Shown piece by piece: positions 1 to 5,496 of a stretch of DNA of 33,977 nt. The notes below the pieces were generated by a model, which saw nothing but the letters and a program-made list of their open reading frames with translations, did not search any database and had not been told where the DNA came from. The first letter of the stretch is position 1; the number at the start of each line of letters is the position of its first letter. Origin of the DNA: Dehalococcoidia bacterium. GTDB taxonomy: Bacteria; Chloroflexota; Dehalococcoidia; SM23-28-2; WHTN01. Location: NCBI GenBank assembly GCA_009377715.1, contig WHTN01000017.1, forward strand, positions 1-33,977, written 5' to 3'. The translations under genes were made by a program, and so were the position numbers.

Positions 1-555
1 GCGCTATCTCCCGGCCGCGGCGTTATTTTCGTGAGCGGCCACATGGGTAGCATGGAAGTGGCGAGCACTATAGTCCTGCTTCGCGACTTCAAGGTCACAT
101 CGGTGACAGAACAGCTAAAGCCTAAGGTGTTGATGGACTGGTTCGTTAGCAGCCGGGCTCGCATGGGTGTAACGCTTCTGCCGGTCACACGGTCCGGAGT
201 CCGTTTGCTGAGGGCGCTGCGGAACAAAGAGATGGTGGCCCTGGTGGTCGATGTCGGCGTGAAGGGCTACGACGAAATACCGGTCAGATTCTTCGGCCGC
301 CGAACATACTTTCCCGGCGGCCCGGCGCGACTAGCCCGGCTCAGCAACGCGCCCGTCCTCTTCGGCGTCGGTTTGCGAGAACGCGATGGCCGTTTCGTCG
401 CCTACATCAGCCCGCCGGTGTTCGCCGATCGCGAGGTTGACGGGGAGGCCGACGTTATAGCCACGACCCAGCGCCTTGCCGATATCTTCGAGTCGTTCGT
501 TAGACGCTATCCGGGGCAGTGGTACGCGTTTCGAGACATGTGGCCGCAAGACTAG
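1..555 (+). CDS. LpxL/HtrB-like (lysophospholipid) acyltransferase, 5' truncated by window edge
   Basis: The frame is open from base 1 with no start in the window, so only the C-terminal ~184 residues are present. The HX4E catalytic motif of the lipid A/phosphatidylinositol-mannoside acyltransferase family is visible as GHMGSME (His near residue 14 of the visible part). The family's C-terminal signature is also present as RRYPGQWYAFRDMW, comparable to the usual YPEQWYWFH..W. The enzyme would transfer an acyl chain to a glycolipid at the inner face of the membrane. In a Chloroflexota-like genome the acceptor is more likely a PIM-type glycolipid than lipid A (inference). It is convergent with the DUF5317 gene, 11 bases away. 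Confidence 0.82.
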   Translation, partial: ALSPGRGVIFVSGHMGSMEVASTIVLLRDFKVTSVTEQLKPKVLMDWFVSSRARMGVTLLPVTRSGVRLLRALRNKEMVALVVDVGVKGYDEIPVRFFGRRTYFPGGPARLARLSNAPVLFGVGLRERDGRFVAYISPPVFADREVDGEADVIATTQRLADIFESFVRRYPGQWYAFRDMWPQD

Positions 556-566
556 GAACTGGAAGA

Positions 567-1151
567 TCAGGAACGGCTTTCGGCACTTCCGCTAGTCGAA
601 GTTGTGATGGCGCGGCTATTACGGGTCGCGTAATAGTAGGCGGCCTCTAAAGGGCCGACTATCAGTAGACCGAAGCCGATAACTACGTCTCCCGGGCTGA
701 AAATTCGCAGGTTAGAAGGGTTTTCGATCACGATAATATCGGAGATCGGCCAAAGTCTCGTGTCCTCCTTCCTGAGGACAACGTCTTTGGAATGCACCAG
801 CGGATCGCTCAGCACTGCTCTCTCAGCTTTTTCGTGTAGGCCTGACCGGGCGATGGCTTCAGGAGTAACCGGCATTAGGCCGCCGTTGGTGACAATCACG
901 ATGAAATTCATCGCTAAGCCGATGCCGATTACCAGGACCGAAGACGACCAGCGGTTGAACCAGACGAAAGCGAGCAGACCTACATAAGTGAGGGGGAAGA
1001 GCGTACGCCGTAGGACTTCGTTTTCTTCGATGGAGCCGCCCCCGGACACGAGCCAAGCCTGGATTGCCAGGCAGATAATTGGGAGTAAACTAAAGCGAAG
1101 GCGCGCCCGTTGCCGGTTTAGGAGCAGACGCGCCTTCGCTTTTCCCCACAT
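567..1151 (-). CDS. DUF5317 family membrane protein
   Basis: The 194-residue protein has three or four hydrophobic segments (about 20-36, 50-64, 70-88 and 154-174). It carries the family's landmarks NGGLMPV (about 88-94) and IFSPGDVVIGFG (about 150-161), known from Chloroflexota and Actinomycetota proteins of unknown role. The family usually begins with a hydrophobic helix before the basic RxxxLxxxRLRxxLL stretch. Here translation starts straight in the basic stretch, and an in-frame TAG lies three codons upstream of the ATG, so the first helix seems missing. No Shine-Dalgarno sequence precedes this ATG. It probably shares a transcript with the 29-residue ORF 37 bases upstream. Confidence 0.75.
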   Translation of the reverse strand: MWGKAKARLLLNRQRARLRFSLLPIICLAIQAWLVSGGGSIEENEVLRRTLFPLTYVGLLAFVWFNRWSSSVLVIGIGLAMNFIVIVTNGGLMPVTPEAIARSGLHEKAERAVLSDPLVHSKDVVLRKEDTRLWPISDIIVIENPSNLRIFSPGDVVIGFGLLIVGPLEAAYYYATRNSRAITTSTSGSAESRS

Positions 1152-1188
1152 GGGGTTTATGCTAAAGCATCCGAATATAAAAAACTAC

Positions 1189-1278
1189 TTAGCCAAAGAT
1201 TGGCGGCGCTGCAGCAGCGGCTGCTAATGCACCGACGACGAGGCCTGTGTAGACGAACTTCCACAGTCTGCTCTTCAT
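1189..1278 (-). CDS. 29-residue hydrophobic microprotein
   Basis: A short ORF with an excellent ribosome-binding site (AAGGAGGG, five bases before the ATG). It starts MKSRLWKFVY, followed by one hydrophobic helix (TGLVVGAL plus an alanine run) and ends PPIFG. The positive N-terminus and single helix suggest a membrane microprotein. A sigma70-like promoter lies just upstream and the DUF5317 gene follows after 37 bases, so the two are probably co-transcribed. I do not recognise a family. It could supply a helix in trans to the DUF5317 protein, which seems to lack its first helix. That is speculation. Confidence 0.55.
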   Translation of the reverse strand: MKSRLWKFVYTGLVVGALAAAAAAPPIFG

Positions 1279-1321
1279 AATACCCTCCTTAATATTCCCT
1301 TAGAGTTAGTAATTATTGCTC

Positions 1322-1367
1322 ATTACTATCTCGATATTACTATCTCAATAAGATAAGAGGGTGTCAA
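1322..1367 (-). promoter_or_regulatory. Promoter with tandem direct repeats (14-bp period)
   Basis: Read on the minus strand, TTGACA (1362-1367) is followed after 17 bases by GATAGT (1339-1344), a weak -10. The 11-mer GAGATAGTAAT occurs twice in exact copy (1336-1346 and 1322-1332), three bases apart, overlapping the -10 and the start region. Direct repeats so placed are typical of an operator. The promoter would drive the microprotein/DUF5317 unit. Confidence 0.5.
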
Positions 1368-1489
1368 GCATACTGGGAGATTCATGCGTTCAAACTATAG
1401 CCACTAAACTGCGTTGCTAGTGAAGCTAAGTGGGGCTTGTATAACGGCGGAAGAATGCGTCTGCTCACCTAGTGCTGCCGCGAACGTTA

Positions 1490-1526
1490 TGCTATATTGG
1501 CTTTTGTGTTAAACGAGGAGACCGCG
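1490..1526 (+). promoter_or_regulatory. Extended -10 promoter and ribosome-binding site of the aminotransferase gene
   Basis: TGCTATATT at 1490-1498 is an extended -10 element; no good -35 precedes it. GAGGAG at 1515-1520 lies six bases before GTG at 1527. Together they rule out the in-frame TTG at 1497, which lies inside the -10 element, and select the GTG start. Confidence 0.55.
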
Positions 1527-2741
1527 GTGAAGCGGTTGCTGCCGGACCTCTTGGCCGACCGCGCTAAGCCCCTTTGGCAGAGCGAGGCAGCCAGCTTCGC
1601 GCCGCCTTCCGTGCCGCTGTTACGTCTTGGCGGTGGCGTGCCGGACCCCGTAGCAGTGCCCCTCGCAGGGCTGGAAGAGGGGTGCCGTCTGGTGTTAGAG
1701 CGCGAGGGCGATGACGCGCTCCAGTACGGCGGACCACAGGGTTACGCCGGGCTTCGCGAGATGCTGGCCCAGCGCATCGGACAACAGGAGGCTACCGAGC
1801 TTACCGCGGCTAACTTCATGCTCGCGGGCGGCGCTGCTCAGGCGCTGGCCGCCGTTTGCTTCGCCTTTTTAGACCCGGGCGATGTCGTGATCTCCGAAGA
1901 CCCAACTTTTCCCGGGTCGTTACGAACCTTTCGCGCCCACCAGGTCGAACTAGTAGGCGTGCCTTTCGATGAAGAAGGGCCGGTAATCGATGTACTCGAA
2001 GCGTCTCTTCAAGCGGAGACCGAGCGTGGCCGGCGTACGAAGTTGCTTTACTTCACGCCGAACGCGCAGAACCCGACCGGCATCAGCTTTTCGCTGCCGC
2101 GCCGCCAGGCGATCGTCGATCTCGTGTCGCGTTACGATTGCCTGATCGTCGAAGACGATGCCTACGGCGAGCTACGGTACGATGGCCATTGGTTGCCTTC
2201 GCTTTATACGCTGGCTGGCGGGCAAGGCGTGGTCCGCCTCGGCACGTTCAGCAAGACCATCGGCCCCGGGCTGCGGCTCGGTTGGACGCAGGCGAGCGCT
2301 GAGCTTACGCAGGTGTTCACGTCGATGCGCCTCGATATGGGGACGAGTCCTTTTCTGGCGCGGGTCGTGGCAGCGTTCGCCGAAAACGGCCACTACGACC
2401 GGCACGTCGAGGAGCTGGTTTCGTTCTACCGCGACAAGCGAGATAAAGTAGCCGCGCTCTTAGAGCGATACTGCGGCGAATGGGCTAGCTGGCGCGTTAC
2501 TGACAGCGGTTTTTTCTTCTGGCTCGAACTCGGCCCGGGGCTGGATGCAGATGCTCTGGCAAAGGCGGCCTACAATGAAGGCGTATCGGTGGCATCAGGC
2601 AACGGTTTCTTCTGTGGCGAGCCGGCCGGCAATTTCCTGCGCCTCGCATTTAGTTACGTTGCCATAGAGGAGATGGAGGAAGCCGTACGGCGATTGGCCC
2701 GCGCGGCTGAAAAGCTTCTTACCGGCCCGCCGGAGAGTTAG
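1527..2741 (+). CDS. PLP-dependent aminotransferase, class I/II (LysN/MocR-catalytic type)
   Basis: The 404-residue protein is a fold-type I aminotransferase. The PLP lysine is K243 in SKTIGPGLRLGW. Cofactor contacts are seen in NPTG (N182) and the D211/Y213 pair of EDDAYGELRYDG. The SKTIGPGLRLGW form is that of the 2-aminoadipate/kynurenine aminotransferase (LysN-like) group and of MocR catalytic domains, but there is no N-terminal GntR HTH, so it is a free enzyme. The amino donor cannot be told from sequence; branched-chain, aromatic or 2-aminoadipate use is possible. The GTG start is chosen on GAGGAG spacing. The small membrane-protein gene follows after 24 bases and may be co-transcribed. 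Confidence 0.88.
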   Translation: MKRLLPDLLADRAKPLWQSEAASFAPPSVPLLRLGGGVPDPVAVPLAGLEEGCRLVLEREGDDALQYGGPQGYAGLREMLAQRIGQQEATELTAANFMLAGGAAQALAAVCFAFLDPGDVVISEDPTFPGSLRTFRAHQVELVGVPFDEEGPVIDVLEASLQAETERGRRTKLLYFTPNAQNPTGISFSLPRRQAIVDLVSRYDCLIVEDDAYGELRYDGHWLPSLYTLAGGQGVVRLGTFSKTIGPGLRLGWTQASAELTQVFTSMRLDMGTSPFLARVVAAFAENGHYDRHVEELVSFYRDKRDKVAALLERYCGEWASWRVTDSGFFFWLELGPGLDADALAKAAYNEGVSVASGNGFFCGEPAGNFLRLAFSYVAIEEMEEAVRRLARAAEKLLTGPPES

Positions 2742-2765
2742 GTCACAGATGGTGGAAAAGTAGAT

Positions 2766-3056
2766 ATGTCATCAAGGAATCAACGCAGACGAAGCAGACG
2801 TCCCGCTGGCACGGCCCAGCGTGAGCGAGAGCGCTTGGCTTCTTACCTGCCCGCAGAAGAGGCGCCTGTAACCACAGCAGAAGAAGCGGCCTCGGAGACG
2901 GAGAGCGGGGCCGCATCTCGTGCGACCCCGCAAGTTCGGCCTCAACAACGCTCGGCCAGGGACTATAGCTACGTCCCGACCGAGCTGCTACGGCAGCTAA
3001 TTCTCACAGTGGGCATAGCTATCTTGCTGGTAATCCTGGCCCTCGTCCTTCGCTAA
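2766..3056 (+). CDS. Small tail-anchored membrane protein, unknown function
   Basis: A 96-residue protein with a very basic N-terminus (NQRRRSRR), a low-complexity acidic/serine middle, and a single C-terminal transmembrane helix (about 73-94). That topology puts the long soluble part in the cytoplasm with only a C-terminal anchor. I recognise no family. Its stop codon overlaps the stop of the convergent SnoaL-like gene (3053-3056). Confidence 0.6.
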   Translation: MSSRNQRRRSRRPAGTAQRERERLASYLPAEEAPVTTAEEAASETESGAASRATPQVRPQQRSARDYSYVPTELLRQLILTVGIAILLVILALVLR

Positions 3057-3478
3057 GCATTTAGCTGGCGTTGTAAGTCAGCAAGGTTGAAGTACGAGCG
3101 GTCCTCTACGCAAAGACCCTGTTCATTGACCCGGCCGTACATCAATACGTTTATTTCGAAGCGCTTGCCGCTCGGCGGGATCTCGCCGTCTGGGGTCTTC
3201 AACGGCCCGCTGTGGGTGCCGCGGCATGTGAGTTCTACGGCAAAGGCGTCGGTAAGGCCGCCGACCACGTTGGCGATTTCGCCGCTGAGGTTCGGGAAAG
3301 CGGTCAGAAGCTCGGTGTGCACACGCTCGACGGCATCGCGGCCGCGCTCCAGCTTCAGGTTCGCGTTGTCCCAAATCGTTGCGTTCTCGGCGTAAAGCTG
3401 CGCCGTCGCCTTGGCGTCGCCGTTGGTCAAAAACTGATGGAAGTACTGGTTGATGAATTGCTTGTATTCGCCTGCCAT
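3053..3478 (-). CDS. SnoaL-like / NTF2-fold polyketide-cyclase-type protein
   Basis: The 141-residue protein has the SnoaL/ester-cyclase pattern: an N-terminal helix pair (YKQFINQYFHQFLTNGD), the YAENATIWD segment, then FPNLSGEI and G-THSGPL and PPSGKRFEIN, typical of SnoaL-like proteins that use a cone-shaped alpha+beta barrel pocket. Substrates of most such proteins are unknown. An AAGGAGG sequence precedes the ATG with good spacing. No pathway neighbours are present, so a detoxification or small-molecule isomerase role is only a guess. Confidence 0.75.
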   Translation of the reverse strand: MAGEYKQFINQYFHQFLTNGDAKATAQLYAENATIWDNANLKLERGRDAVERVHTELLTAFPNLSGEIANVVGGLTDAFAVELTCRGTHSGPLKTPDGEIPPSGKRFEINVLMYGRVNEQGLCVEDRSYFNLADLQRQLNA

Positions 3479-3559
3479 TTATTCCTCCTTCGCAAGCTGA
3501 ACTCAATGAAGTAAACGCTGCTGATTATAGCCCGCCATAGCGGAGGCCGTCAACGATTT

Positions 3560-3677
3560 GGGGAAGGAGGAAGAGGGTTTTAATTAGCATGATTAACACA
3601 GATATATTGACGGATGCTTTCTATTAATATCTGTGTTCCATCTGTACATATCTGTAGTGATCCCTCCTTCTTTCTCC
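3560..3677. repeat. Composite palindromic repeat (ATCTGTG type inside purine-rich arms)
   Basis: The inner arms AACACAGATAT (3595-3605) and ATATCTGTGTT (3627-3637) are a perfect 11-bp inverted repeat, followed by two further ATCTGT copies. The outer arms GAAGGAGG (3563-3570) and CCTCCTTC (3663-3670) are also inverted. From memory, intergenic ATCTGTGTTCATCTGTG-type repeats recur in many environmental genomes. Confidence 0.6.
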
Positions 3678-3752
3678 GATCTCCTCATTGGTGAATACTT
3701 TGGTCTCCTCGCAGCGTTTCTGGCGGGTTTGCGATAACTTTTGTCCAATATC

Positions 3753-3782
3753 TTGACAAAAAGTGAAATAGAGTGCTACTTA
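3753..3782 (+). promoter_or_regulatory. Candidate promoter of the tandem-HTH gene
   Basis: A consensus TTGACA (3753-3758) is followed after 18 bases by TACTTA (3777-3782), which is preceded by TGC as in an extended -10. The -10 is a poor match. Transcription from here would give a leader of about 105 bases containing the poly-C tract. Confidence 0.4.
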
Positions 3783-3870
3783 TAGCAAGAAATGCATACC
3801 ATAGCGCTGGTCTATTGTTGTGGACTTCCTCCATCGGCCAGGGCGGCAGTAAGGAAGCTTACGGAAATGG

Positions 3871-3880
3871 CCCCCCCCCC
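3871..3880 (+). repeat. Homopolymer tract C10 in the leader
   Basis: Ten consecutive C lie 16 bases before the GTG start of the tandem-HTH gene, outside its reading frame (an in-frame TAG lies at 3885-3887). Length changes in such tracts can alter leader folding or expression. Confidence 0.8.
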
Positions 3881-3896
3881 GGATTAGGATGAAGTT

Positions 3897-4304
3897 GTGC
3901 AAGAGTGGTACGCATTGTCCGTGCGCGAGCGGCAATTCATCGAACTTCTAGTGAGAGACCCGAGCGATAAAGAAATCGCCAAAGCCCTTGGCATAAGCCA
4001 AAATACTGTCCGTTATTATTTCACGCGCCTTTTTGCTAAGACCGGCTGTACTAGCCGGGTGCAACTAGCGAATTGGGGCCGGCGGATTTTACTACCAGGC
4101 TTTGAAATCTCCATCAATTTGAGCAGCCGCCAGCGGCAGATCGCCGAATCAGTCGCTCTCGGATTGCATAACAAACAGATAGCGGAGCGTCTTGGCATCA
4201 CGGCGAACACCGCCAGGGACGAAGTGAGTGCGCTGCTGAGAAAGCTTAACCTTCATACCAGGACTGAGCTGGCTACTTGGTGGACAAGGTATTCCTCCTC
4301 CTAA
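3897..4304 (+). CDS. Tandem LuxR/GerE-type HTH protein (two DNA-binding domains, no sensor domain)
   Basis: The 135-residue protein consists almost wholly of two GerE/LuxR helix-turn-helix domains. The first is residues 7-60 (LSVRERQFIELL, KEIAKALGISQNTVRYY, RVQLANW). The second is 75-128 (LSSRQRQIAESV, KQIAERLGITANTARDEV, RTELATWW). A short linker (GRRILLPGFEISIN) joins them. There is no receiver, PAS, autoinducer or ATPase domain. Normal family members carry one such domain at the C-terminus and dimerise through it, so this one may bind a full site as a monomer. The start is GTG with a weak AGGA. It probably controls itself or the secreted pair downstream (inference from position). Confidence 0.85.
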   Translation: MQEWYALSVRERQFIELLVRDPSDKEIAKALGISQNTVRYYFTRLFAKTGCTSRVQLANWGRRILLPGFEISINLSSRQRQIAESVALGLHNKQIAERLGITANTARDEVSALLRKLNLHTRTELATWWTRYSSS

Positions 4305-4511
4305 AACTACCGAAAAACCCTACATTTGTAGGATCGTTTTCATAGTAGATTAGCATAGTCTAGGAACAGAGCACAAAAAGAGAGATTTTTGGGGTAATTA
4401 GCTTGGAGCTTAAGGACGAAGTTTTATCCGCGTATTCGTTCTGCGGCATCAAAGCGAAACGCCCCCGGTGGGCGCCCTCCAAAATCGATGTTCAGGTAGA
4501 GGAGGTTAAAA
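4305..4511 (+). promoter_or_regulatory. Leader/operator region with palindrome upstream of the secreted pair
   Basis: CCTACA-TT-TGTAGG (4319-4332) is a perfect 6-bp dyad 15 bases after the stop of the tandem-HTH gene, a candidate operator for it. A hairpin CGCCC-ccggt-GGGCG lies at about 4459-4473. The region is AT-rich, with a possible -10 near 4349. I see no real gene here. Confidence 0.35.
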
Positions 4512-4988
4512 TTGCGGAAGTTAATTATAAGTGTTTTAATCTTGTCCTCGCTGGCTCTTATCTTCTTACAGCAAGAAGAAGTAAAAGCTGACCATGGGTC
4601 TGAATGGCATGTCTCGAACGTTACAATGATGCAGGGCTGGAGTAATCCTAGCGGAGTTATGGCGCAGTGGTATCAAGGTGGTTATGGCGATTGTTTTGCG
4701 TCAGGGGGTCACAACGTTTGCGTGTTCCACGCCTCTTGGTGGGATGTAATCTGTGATAGTATATGCGCGTGGTATGATAATGGGTACGGTGCCAACACCG
4801 CTCATGGCGTATCTGCAACCTGGCATTGCCAGCTGCCAGAAAACTATTGCGGTAGCTATCAGGTATCCTTGCCCACATATTCGCCGTCCTGTTGGTGGTA
4901 CGAGACAGTGCATGTATACGCGATTGGCGGTATGCAAGAAACTCTAGATGACGATTGGTCATCAAATTGGGAATACGTAGACTGCTAG
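4512..4988 (+). CDS. Secreted cysteine- and tryptophan-rich protein, unknown family
   Basis: The start is TTG, fixed by GAGGAGG about seven bases upstream. Residues 1-26 form a signal peptide (RK, then a LIISVLILSSLALIFL core, probable cleavage after VKA). The mature part of about 130 residues has eight cysteines and about eleven tryptophans, suggesting four disulfides and an extracellular life. I recognise no enzyme motif. Base composition is more AT-rich than the neighbouring genes, hinting at recent acquisition. The lipoprotein gene follows after 16 bases, so the two are very likely one operon. A toxin/bacteriocin, adhesin or carbohydrate-binding role is possible; none can be shown. Confidence 0.7.
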   Translation: MRKLIISVLILSSLALIFLQQEEVKADHGSEWHVSNVTMMQGWSNPSGVMAQWYQGGYGDCFASGGHNVCVFHASWWDVICDSICAWYDNGYGANTAHGVSATWHCQLPENYCGSYQVSLPTYSPSCWWYETVHVYAIGGMQETLDDDWSSNWEYVDC

Positions 4989-5004
4989 TCAGGGGGTTAT
5001 TACA

Positions 5005-5496
5005 GTGAAACGAGCGTTTATTGCTCTGGTAGTTTGTCTGTTTGTAATCGTCGTAATAGCTTGTAAGGGAGCTACGGCCGAGCAAGAATCTCCCCAGGCT
5101 GTTACTAATGAGCCTTATGAGGCGGTGGACTATTCGTACTCTTCTCAGGTGGTTGCGGATGAGTTTCTCATAAATTTCCCCGTGCCGGATGCTCTGAGCA
5201 GTTGCGGCTTGAGTCAAGAAGAGCTTAAAGAAAGAGTCAGAAGTTACGCTAACGGAAATGCAGCGGAACTTCGGTCTAAGGATATTTCTGCGATTGATGT
5301 TATCAATTGTCCAGACGCTGGCAGTATCGGAGCGCTTCTGTTGAAGACACCGGGCAATGTTTACGTTCCGCCGGAGCATTGTCAGGAACTAATAAGAAAT
5401 ACTATGGGAACTAGAGACAAATCGATTCCCGCCCCGGATCTACCGGAAGAATGCTACCCGCCAGCACACTTCGAGCCTGTCGCGATACCCAAGTAG
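5005..5496 (+). CDS. Lipoprotein, unknown function
   Basis: GTG start preceded by AGGGGG. The N-terminus MKRAFIALVVCLFVIVVIAC is a lipoprotein signal with the lipobox VIAC (acylated Cys20). The mature part (about 144 residues) has four more cysteines and no family I recognise. It is the second gene of a two-gene unit with the secreted Cys/Trp-rich protein and may anchor, process or give immunity to that protein (inference). A strong terminator follows. Confidence 0.68.
   Translation: MKRAFIALVVCLFVIVVIACKGATAEQESPQAVTNEPYEAVDYSYSSQVVADEFLINFPVPDALSSCGLSQEELKERVRSYANGNAAELRSKDISAIDVINCPDAGSIGALLLKTPGNVYVPPEHCQELIRNTMGTRDKSIPAPDLPEECYPPAHFEPVAIPK

Follow-up and report, generated by a model that had tools for sequence, protein, structure and literature searches.

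Why does a reading frame of just 29 codons, lying shortly upstream of a DUF5317 membrane protein gene in the genome of a Dehalococcoidia bacterium, come with its own ribosome-binding site and promoter-like elements, and what might its product do? The window, i.e., the whole 33,977-nucleotide stretch of DNA that was analysed, shows the following features at this locus:

1367-1362, minus strand: -35-like TTGACA, 17 nt before GATAGT
1346-1336, minus strand: direct repeat copy 1, GAGATAGTAAT, an exact copy containing the candidate -10
1344-1339, minus strand: candidate -10 GATAGT, inside direct repeat copy 1
1332-1322, minus strand: direct repeat copy 2, GAGATAGTAAT, exact, 14 bp downstream; a candidate regulator site
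1317-1312, minus strand: alternative -10-like AATAAT, with the second GAGATAG heptamer 8 bp ahead of it, a SARP-promoter geometry according to the available portion of PMC10936776
1303-1313, plus strand: third repeat copy, inverted and with one mismatch, GAGTTAGTAAT
1290-1283, minus strand: Shine-Dalgarno (SD) sequence AAGGAGGG, with the ATG 4 nt further on
1278..1189, minus strand: micropeptide ORF of 29 aa, MKSRLWKFVYTGLVVGALAAAAAAPPIFG, from sequence reading and homologues
1151..567, minus strand: gene for a DUF5317 (PF17248) membrane protein, short form without helix 1
1142-1092, minus strand: 18-bp RNA hairpin over the opening codons of DUF5317 (-41.6 kcal/mol, z -5.3)

The encoded peptide has a basic N-terminus, a single hydrophobic helix and a C-terminus reading ...AAPPIFG. 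The elements on which the first-pass annotation had built its case, namely an ideal Shine-Dalgarno sequence, a TTGACA and two exact 11-mers over the -10, are all present on the minus strand. The TTGACA and GATAGT pair gives 10/12 promoter matches, which says little by itself because the region 1-5000 holds five promoter-like matches against 2.7 expected. Both GAGATAGTAAT copies fall within one 14-bp tandem repeat (13/14 identical); when the local 101 bp were dinucleotide-shuffled 20,000 times, 44 of the shuffles contained an exact repeated 11-mer, and the 25-bp double site occurs a single time in the genome's own 2.35 Mb, even at up to three mismatches. Elsewhere in the window, positions 3897-4304 (plus strand) encode a 135-aa protein that consists only of two LuxR-type (GerE) DNA-binding domains. 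Behind it come two small secreted-looking ORFs (4512-4988 and 5005-5496) that gave no Pfam match.

The 29-aa ORF is a real gene and a member of a selected family of 24-60-residue, SD-led peptides that precede DUF5317 genes across the Chloroflexota and share a basic start, one hydrophobic helix and a short tail. An initial search with the peptide returned hits in 25 of the 100 genomes searched (E<=10), the own genome included; that genome aside, only the four best matches (G024, G004, G015 and G019), each adjoining a DUF5317 gene, are counted as true, and the others lie mostly within longer frames. Upstream of DUF5317, a similar ORF is found in most relatives from the order and the class. Using a strict filter (SD of at least 5, 20-45 aa, hydrophobic), a peptide was recovered at 34/57 class loci, whereas the antisense strand gave 0/57 and shuffled sequences 0.05. 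Beyond the class, where 90 of the DUF5317 matches listed were read, the same filter, whose length limit missed a family of 46-48-aa peptides, found 15/89, with one antisense and 0.2 shuffled hits. The pN/pS ratios of seven groups (0.11, 0.18, 0.35, 0.23, 0.12, 0.00 and 0.18, the last three being single pairs and group g3 including one genome from another genus) point to purifying selection in all of them; as the sample contains no other member of the family to which the window genome belongs, selection was measured in its relatives. Hence, the earlier view that so short an ORF is real and lies behind a repeat-bearing promoter is borne out by homologues, by selection in relatives and by the repeats themselves, and the check that it had proposed, a short ORF ahead of DUF5317 in relatives, succeeds well beyond the genus. 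None of the known small-protein families fits when 19 of the peptides are scanned against Pfam and NCBIfam, the lone match being one member to OppC_N at 0.001. In one genome, two identical 45-aa micropeptide genes stand in tandem, 220 bp apart, upstream of DUF5317 (L143); tandem copies elsewhere are two different peptides at L217 and two near-identical ones at L272.

In the phylum-wide sample we used 146 of 152 DUF5317 loci, leaving out six with less than 480 bp of upstream sequence, and found the peptide at 81 of them. Clustering of flanking ORFs, followed by domain searches, brought out a large regulator of 1,030-1,190 aa with an AAA/NACHT-like NTPase domain, TPRs and a C-terminal BTAD domain; these clusters contain duplicates (some genomes appear both among L126-L135 and under G handles), and their sizes are not used as counts here. 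A regulator ORF lies upstream of DUF5317, on the same strand and within about 1.4 kb, at 56 loci, where the peptide was detected by script in 55 and by eye, with a weak SD, in the last (G217:C20). At the 90 loci without a linked regulator, the peptide is found in 26 and neither is found in 64 (Fisher 1.3e-18 over the 146 loci, related genomes not being independent). Some of these 26 are order-mates in which the regulator does occur 1.2-1.4 kb upstream, beyond a small secreted-protein gene. This intervening ORF (L128:5342-5632 and similar ones in order-mates) encodes a conserved small secreted, Cys-containing protein with no Pfam family.

The pairing also holds when approached from the side of the regulator. 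A search of 61 relatives and 301 phylum genomes, with the regulator of the window genome as the query, yielded 35 regulator loci for examination, and a hydrophobic microORF with an SD of at least 5 lies no more than 450 nt downstream in 26/35, against 4/35 antisense and 0/35 upstream; looser limits bring up further microORFs beside regulators. Twelve genomes have both the regulator and the peptide without any DUF5317 match listed:

G045, G048, G049, G090, G152, G442, G495, G499, G576, G590, G617, G635

The weaker cases among these are G495, with an unusual peptide, and G617, whose regulator has two stops. The peptide thus tracks the regulator across the Chloroflexota, with DUF5317 or without it; since it occurs with the regulator in the absence of DUF5317, the regulator and the peptide form the core, to which DUF5317 is an optional addition. 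Among the regulators with no adjoining peptide are those of G000:C76, G040 and G074, three genomes in which the peptide lies beside DUF5317 elsewhere, and those of G410, G562 and G583:C10. The first of these is that of the window genome, which has one close regulator homologue, unlinked to the peptide and on another contig (G000:C76:8694-11939), beside which no same-strand microORF was found.

The regulator of the window genome is 1,082 aa long (others are 1,034-1,191 aa), and its sequence suggests a MalT/AfsR hybrid, in which an NTPase-TPR part is joined to an AfsR-type SARP DNA-binding end. Its N-terminal part matches the NCBIfam MalT model over residues 30-604 (6e-60) and PDB 8bob (3e-24). 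The MalT score of 203 bits is far below the equivalog cut-off of 537, and the AfsR equivalog of NCBIfam reaches 77 bits against a cut-off of 1430. In a full-length search, residues 77-271 of the AfsR SARP chain 8hvr align to residues 876-1067 (E 3.4e-10), and the match is recovered when the C-terminal part alone is searched. The BTAD domain scores 61.5 bits (cut-off 22.1); Pfam Trans_reg_C is absent from this protein and gives 14.5 bits in one relative. The unlinked regulator thereby has both the OmpR-type DNA-binding and the BTAD domains that define SARP domain membership. Its TPR region also exceeds the Pfam RNPP_C cut-off, a weak match of the kind that TPRs give by cross-matching. It is hence like MalT in its NTPase-TPR sensor half and unlike it at the other end, where a SARP part replaces the LuxR part.

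SARP regulators act on direct repeats with a spacing of 11 or 22 bp, and 8 bp separate the final repeat from the -10, according to the part of PMC10936776 available to us. Direct repeats, with 8 of 9 positions matching, were counted in the 81 peptide promoters. Lags of 11 and 12 are found in 24/81 and 14/81 of them, with about 0.9 and 0.6 expected; a lag of 22 is found in 6/81 and other lags in 0 to 3. In the two controls, lags of 11 and 12 occur in 2 and 4 of 65 DUF5317 loci without the peptide and in 5 and 2 of 79 regions 500 bp further upstream. Repeat-bearing promoters make up 31/55 of those with an adjacent regulator, versus 4/26 of those without. A TAnnnT element begins 8-9 bp past the repeat in 24/34 promoters and within an offset of 5-11 in 29/34, against 3.4 in shuffles. 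Many peptide promoters of the relatives therefore carry SARP-type repeats that are correctly placed before the -10.

In their distance from the start codon (60-72 nt), the repeats of the window agree with the 11/12-bp repeats of the relatives. Read as heptamers, they give GAGATAG-N7-GAGATAG-N8-AATAAT, which fits the rule of 8 bp to the -10 and misses the 11-bp spacing, the interval being 14 bp versus 11 or 12 in relatives; read conventionally, as TTGACA-17-GATAGT, the first copy falls on the -10. Owing to the 14-bp spacing and the unlinked regulator, the reading of the GAGATAGTAAT repeats is uncertain. By eye, the promoters of order-mates are of a sigma-70-like TTGACA-17-TATTAAT type whose spacer holds a palindrome, e.g., CCAATANTATTGG; a hairpin precedes the SD of their peptide genes. 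With the regulator unlinked, the spacing at 14 and the promoters of order-mates of another type, it is at best plausible that this regulator controls the window promoter.

The number of operators per genome differs between families. In family f38, a scan of ten genomes for the repeat TCGCGAGAANNTCGCGAGAA found 12 matches, of which 10 are at the peptide promoter; the two extra sites have two mismatches each and neither is clearly a promoter, so that the operator is essentially a single site per genome and a wider regulon was not seen in this family. Ten genomes of family f104 hold 16 operator matches, nine of them at peptide promoters, while G464 has no match despite having the peptide. The seven extra matches, one of which overlaps another, are spread over five genomes; six were read, and they could be taken as a hint of a regulon. 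The ORFs encountered behind peptide-type operators by sequence reading include these: a 68-aa stand-alone LuxR-type HTH ORF behind one with a 12-bp period (L321 and L322, in G418:C11 and G534:C3), and secreted proteins of about 1,000 aa (L318 and L319, in G653:C14 and G611:C50).

The peptides themselves have a recurrent anatomy. Net positive charge ahead of the hydrophobic core is seen in 75 of 78 distinct peptides, and by the positive-inside rule (MK.R at the N-end in the window) the predicted orientation is N-in/C-out. A small-x-small-[PDENS] motif with a tail of at most 14 residues occurs in 70/78, as opposed to 29 in shuffles, and W, F or Y is present among the last six residues in 56/78. 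The tails vary strongly in length and charge between families (e.g., AAPFQSW, VAPWYWG, GAPEDGGGVGR, LADATLPF, GADAVWP and AAWPVATGP); within f38, the tail (AGAAPxxxW) is the best conserved part, being kept across genera rather than diverging.

Taken together, we put at nearly even odds the proposal that the ORF encodes the precursor of a secreted or membrane-anchored peptide, which partners the NTPase-TPR-SARP regulator in an autoinduction loop. The computed support for it comes from the gene, the selection on it, the pairing, the promoter geometry and the domains of the regulator. For activation, export, cleavage, uptake and binding, we infer the following course: the regulator would activate the peptide gene, and the peptide would leave through its hydrophobic signal; cleavage after small residues (A-x-A) might then release a tail of 4-12 residues, or else the peptide may stay anchored; finally, the TPR domain of the regulator would sense the peptide or its tail, thereby closing a loop like that of the RRNPP systems of Firmicutes. 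DUF5317 could be an accessory membrane partner in processing or export. The window genome has its regulator gene elsewhere (G000:C76), and the peptide-DUF5317 unit stands under the repeat-bearing promoter. Oligopeptide-binding proteins (SBP_bac_5) are encoded downstream of DUF5317 at several loci of the order, and the window genome has 24 SBP_bac_5 matches; hence, an uptake route exists, though an unspecific one.

Comparable systems share individual parts of this arrangement. The RRNPP systems, in the accessible text of PMC10075063, likewise place a TPR receptor beside a small propeptide with a basic N-end, a hydrophobic core and a short C-terminal tail. The window peptide, at 29 aa, lies within the 10-100 aa of such propeptides and has their basic N-end and hydrophobic core, as do its relatives in the charge count above; a TPR receptor adjoins the propeptide at 56 DUF5317 loci and 26/35 regulator loci, that of the window genome being on another contig. 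Unlike the RRNPP receptors of 250-500 aa, the putative Chloroflexota receptor has about 1,030-1,190 aa (1,082 in the window genome), a STAND NTPase and a SARP output. The RRNPP detector described in PMC10075063 is restricted to receptors of 250-500 aa and gram-positive genomes, and the word Chloroflex is absent from the portion of that paper available. The AfsR-afsS pair of Streptomyces, as presented in part of PMC10936776, similarly has a big STAND/TPR regulator with a SARP domain, a small target gene and 11-bp direct repeats, the last about 8 bp from the -10; it differs from the Chloroflexota system, in which the SARP domain is C-terminal, the sensor part is MalT-like and the predicted product is a signal-like peptide of 24-60 residues, often partnered by DUF5317. 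PimR-type SARP-LAL regulators also have a direct-repeat SARP operator, located in a single target promoter; the target, going by the available excerpt of PMC5930380, is a PAS-LuxR gene and no peptide.

Somewhat more tentatively, we extend the proposal to a Chloroflexota-wide mode of peptide communication with a new receptor class, in which a MalT/AfsR-hybrid STAND regulator would respond to the tail of the exported micropeptide that belongs to it and autoactivate the peptide gene via SARP-type repeats, DUF5317 would often take part in processing or export, and the regulon of some families would include secreted proteins and a LuxR-type regulator. Points against the proposed signalling loop are the one operator per genome in f38, the conserved tail in that family, a receptor 2-4 times as long as those of RRNPP, the regulators with no adjoining peptide and, in the window genome, the unlinked regulator and the 14-bp spacing. 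The main rival explanation, which we consider possible though rather unlikely, is a membrane-resident small effector: a SARP-type regulator would switch on a single-pass microprotein that acts on DUF5317 or another target without export, as in AfsR-afsS. The single dominant operator at the f38 peptide promoter would suit such an effector, as would the conservation of both the C-terminal aromatic residue and the hydrophobic core in f38 and the frequent adjacency or overlap of the peptide and DUF5317 genes. Against it, the peptide exists without DUF5317, the tails differ strongly in length and charge between families, and a signalling regulon is suggested by the extra f104 operators, which lie ahead of genes for secreted proteins and of a LuxR-type gene.

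It is improbable that the ORF is a leader or arrest peptide, whose translation controls DUF5317 in cis. A short ORF ahead of a gene, the Pro near its C-end and the hairpin at the start of the window DUF5317, about 45 nt past the peptide stop, would suit such a leader, and the hairpin (1092-1142) may lower the expression of DUF5317 relative to the peptide. Yet the peptide occurs with no DUF5317 downstream, the distance from its stop to the DUF5317 domain varies between roughly 40 and 300 nt across loci, and Rfam gives no match within 500-1700 of the window at E 0.1. We give still less credence to a small membrane toxin or bacteriocin under the control of the regulator: the size and hydrophobicity of the peptide resemble those of type I toxins, but the phylum-wide pairing with a STAND regulator would be unlike them.

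The DUF5317 protein of the window is a member of its family, with a PF17248 match of 89.4 bits (3e-25), above the gathering cut-off of 25. Its structure model (pLDDT 88.6) has no PDB match at E 0.001, with VIA-align Z-scores of at most 5.8, a middling value; this lack is evidence neither for a new fold nor for a function. The first-pass annotation had correctly seen that this gene lacks its first helix, as the hydrophobic helix 1 of long-form members is absent. In a second genomic setting noted by eye (L088, L052, L053 and L115), long-form DUF5317 genes follow an HD-GYP-like gene and have no micropeptide. The further suggestion that the peptide completes the protein, standing in for helix 1, accounted perfectly for the first class sample, where the peptide is found only with DUF5317 proteins that lack the helix, and it agrees with the presence of the peptide at 47/53 helix-less loci versus 34/93 helix-1 loci. 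It is the most improbable of the alternatives and is contradicted by the phylum sample and the loci without DUF5317: 34 of the 81 peptide loci have helix 1 (47 lack it), the peptide is present at every regulator-linked locus that has helix 1 (23 of 23), the 12 genomes listed above lack a DUF5317 match, and helix 1 of the long form (followed by GGRL..L..LR) is predicted to run out-to-in, opposite to the peptide.

Neither DUF5317 nor a description of the peptide-regulator pairing was found in the open-access papers searched, subscription journals and preprints being mostly outside that search. SARP regulators, small targets and peptide pheromones are each known, and it is their combination that appears to be new. 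The conserved peptide and its regulator suggest a previously undescribed peptide-signalling system. If this is true, it would supply a concrete candidate for peptide signalling in a large, mostly uncultured phylum, an explanation for the retention of a family of such short ORFs, and a testable role for both DUF5317 and the orphan MalT/AfsR-like regulators. More generally, a microORF below the normal length for annotation can be a conserved part of a regulatory module.
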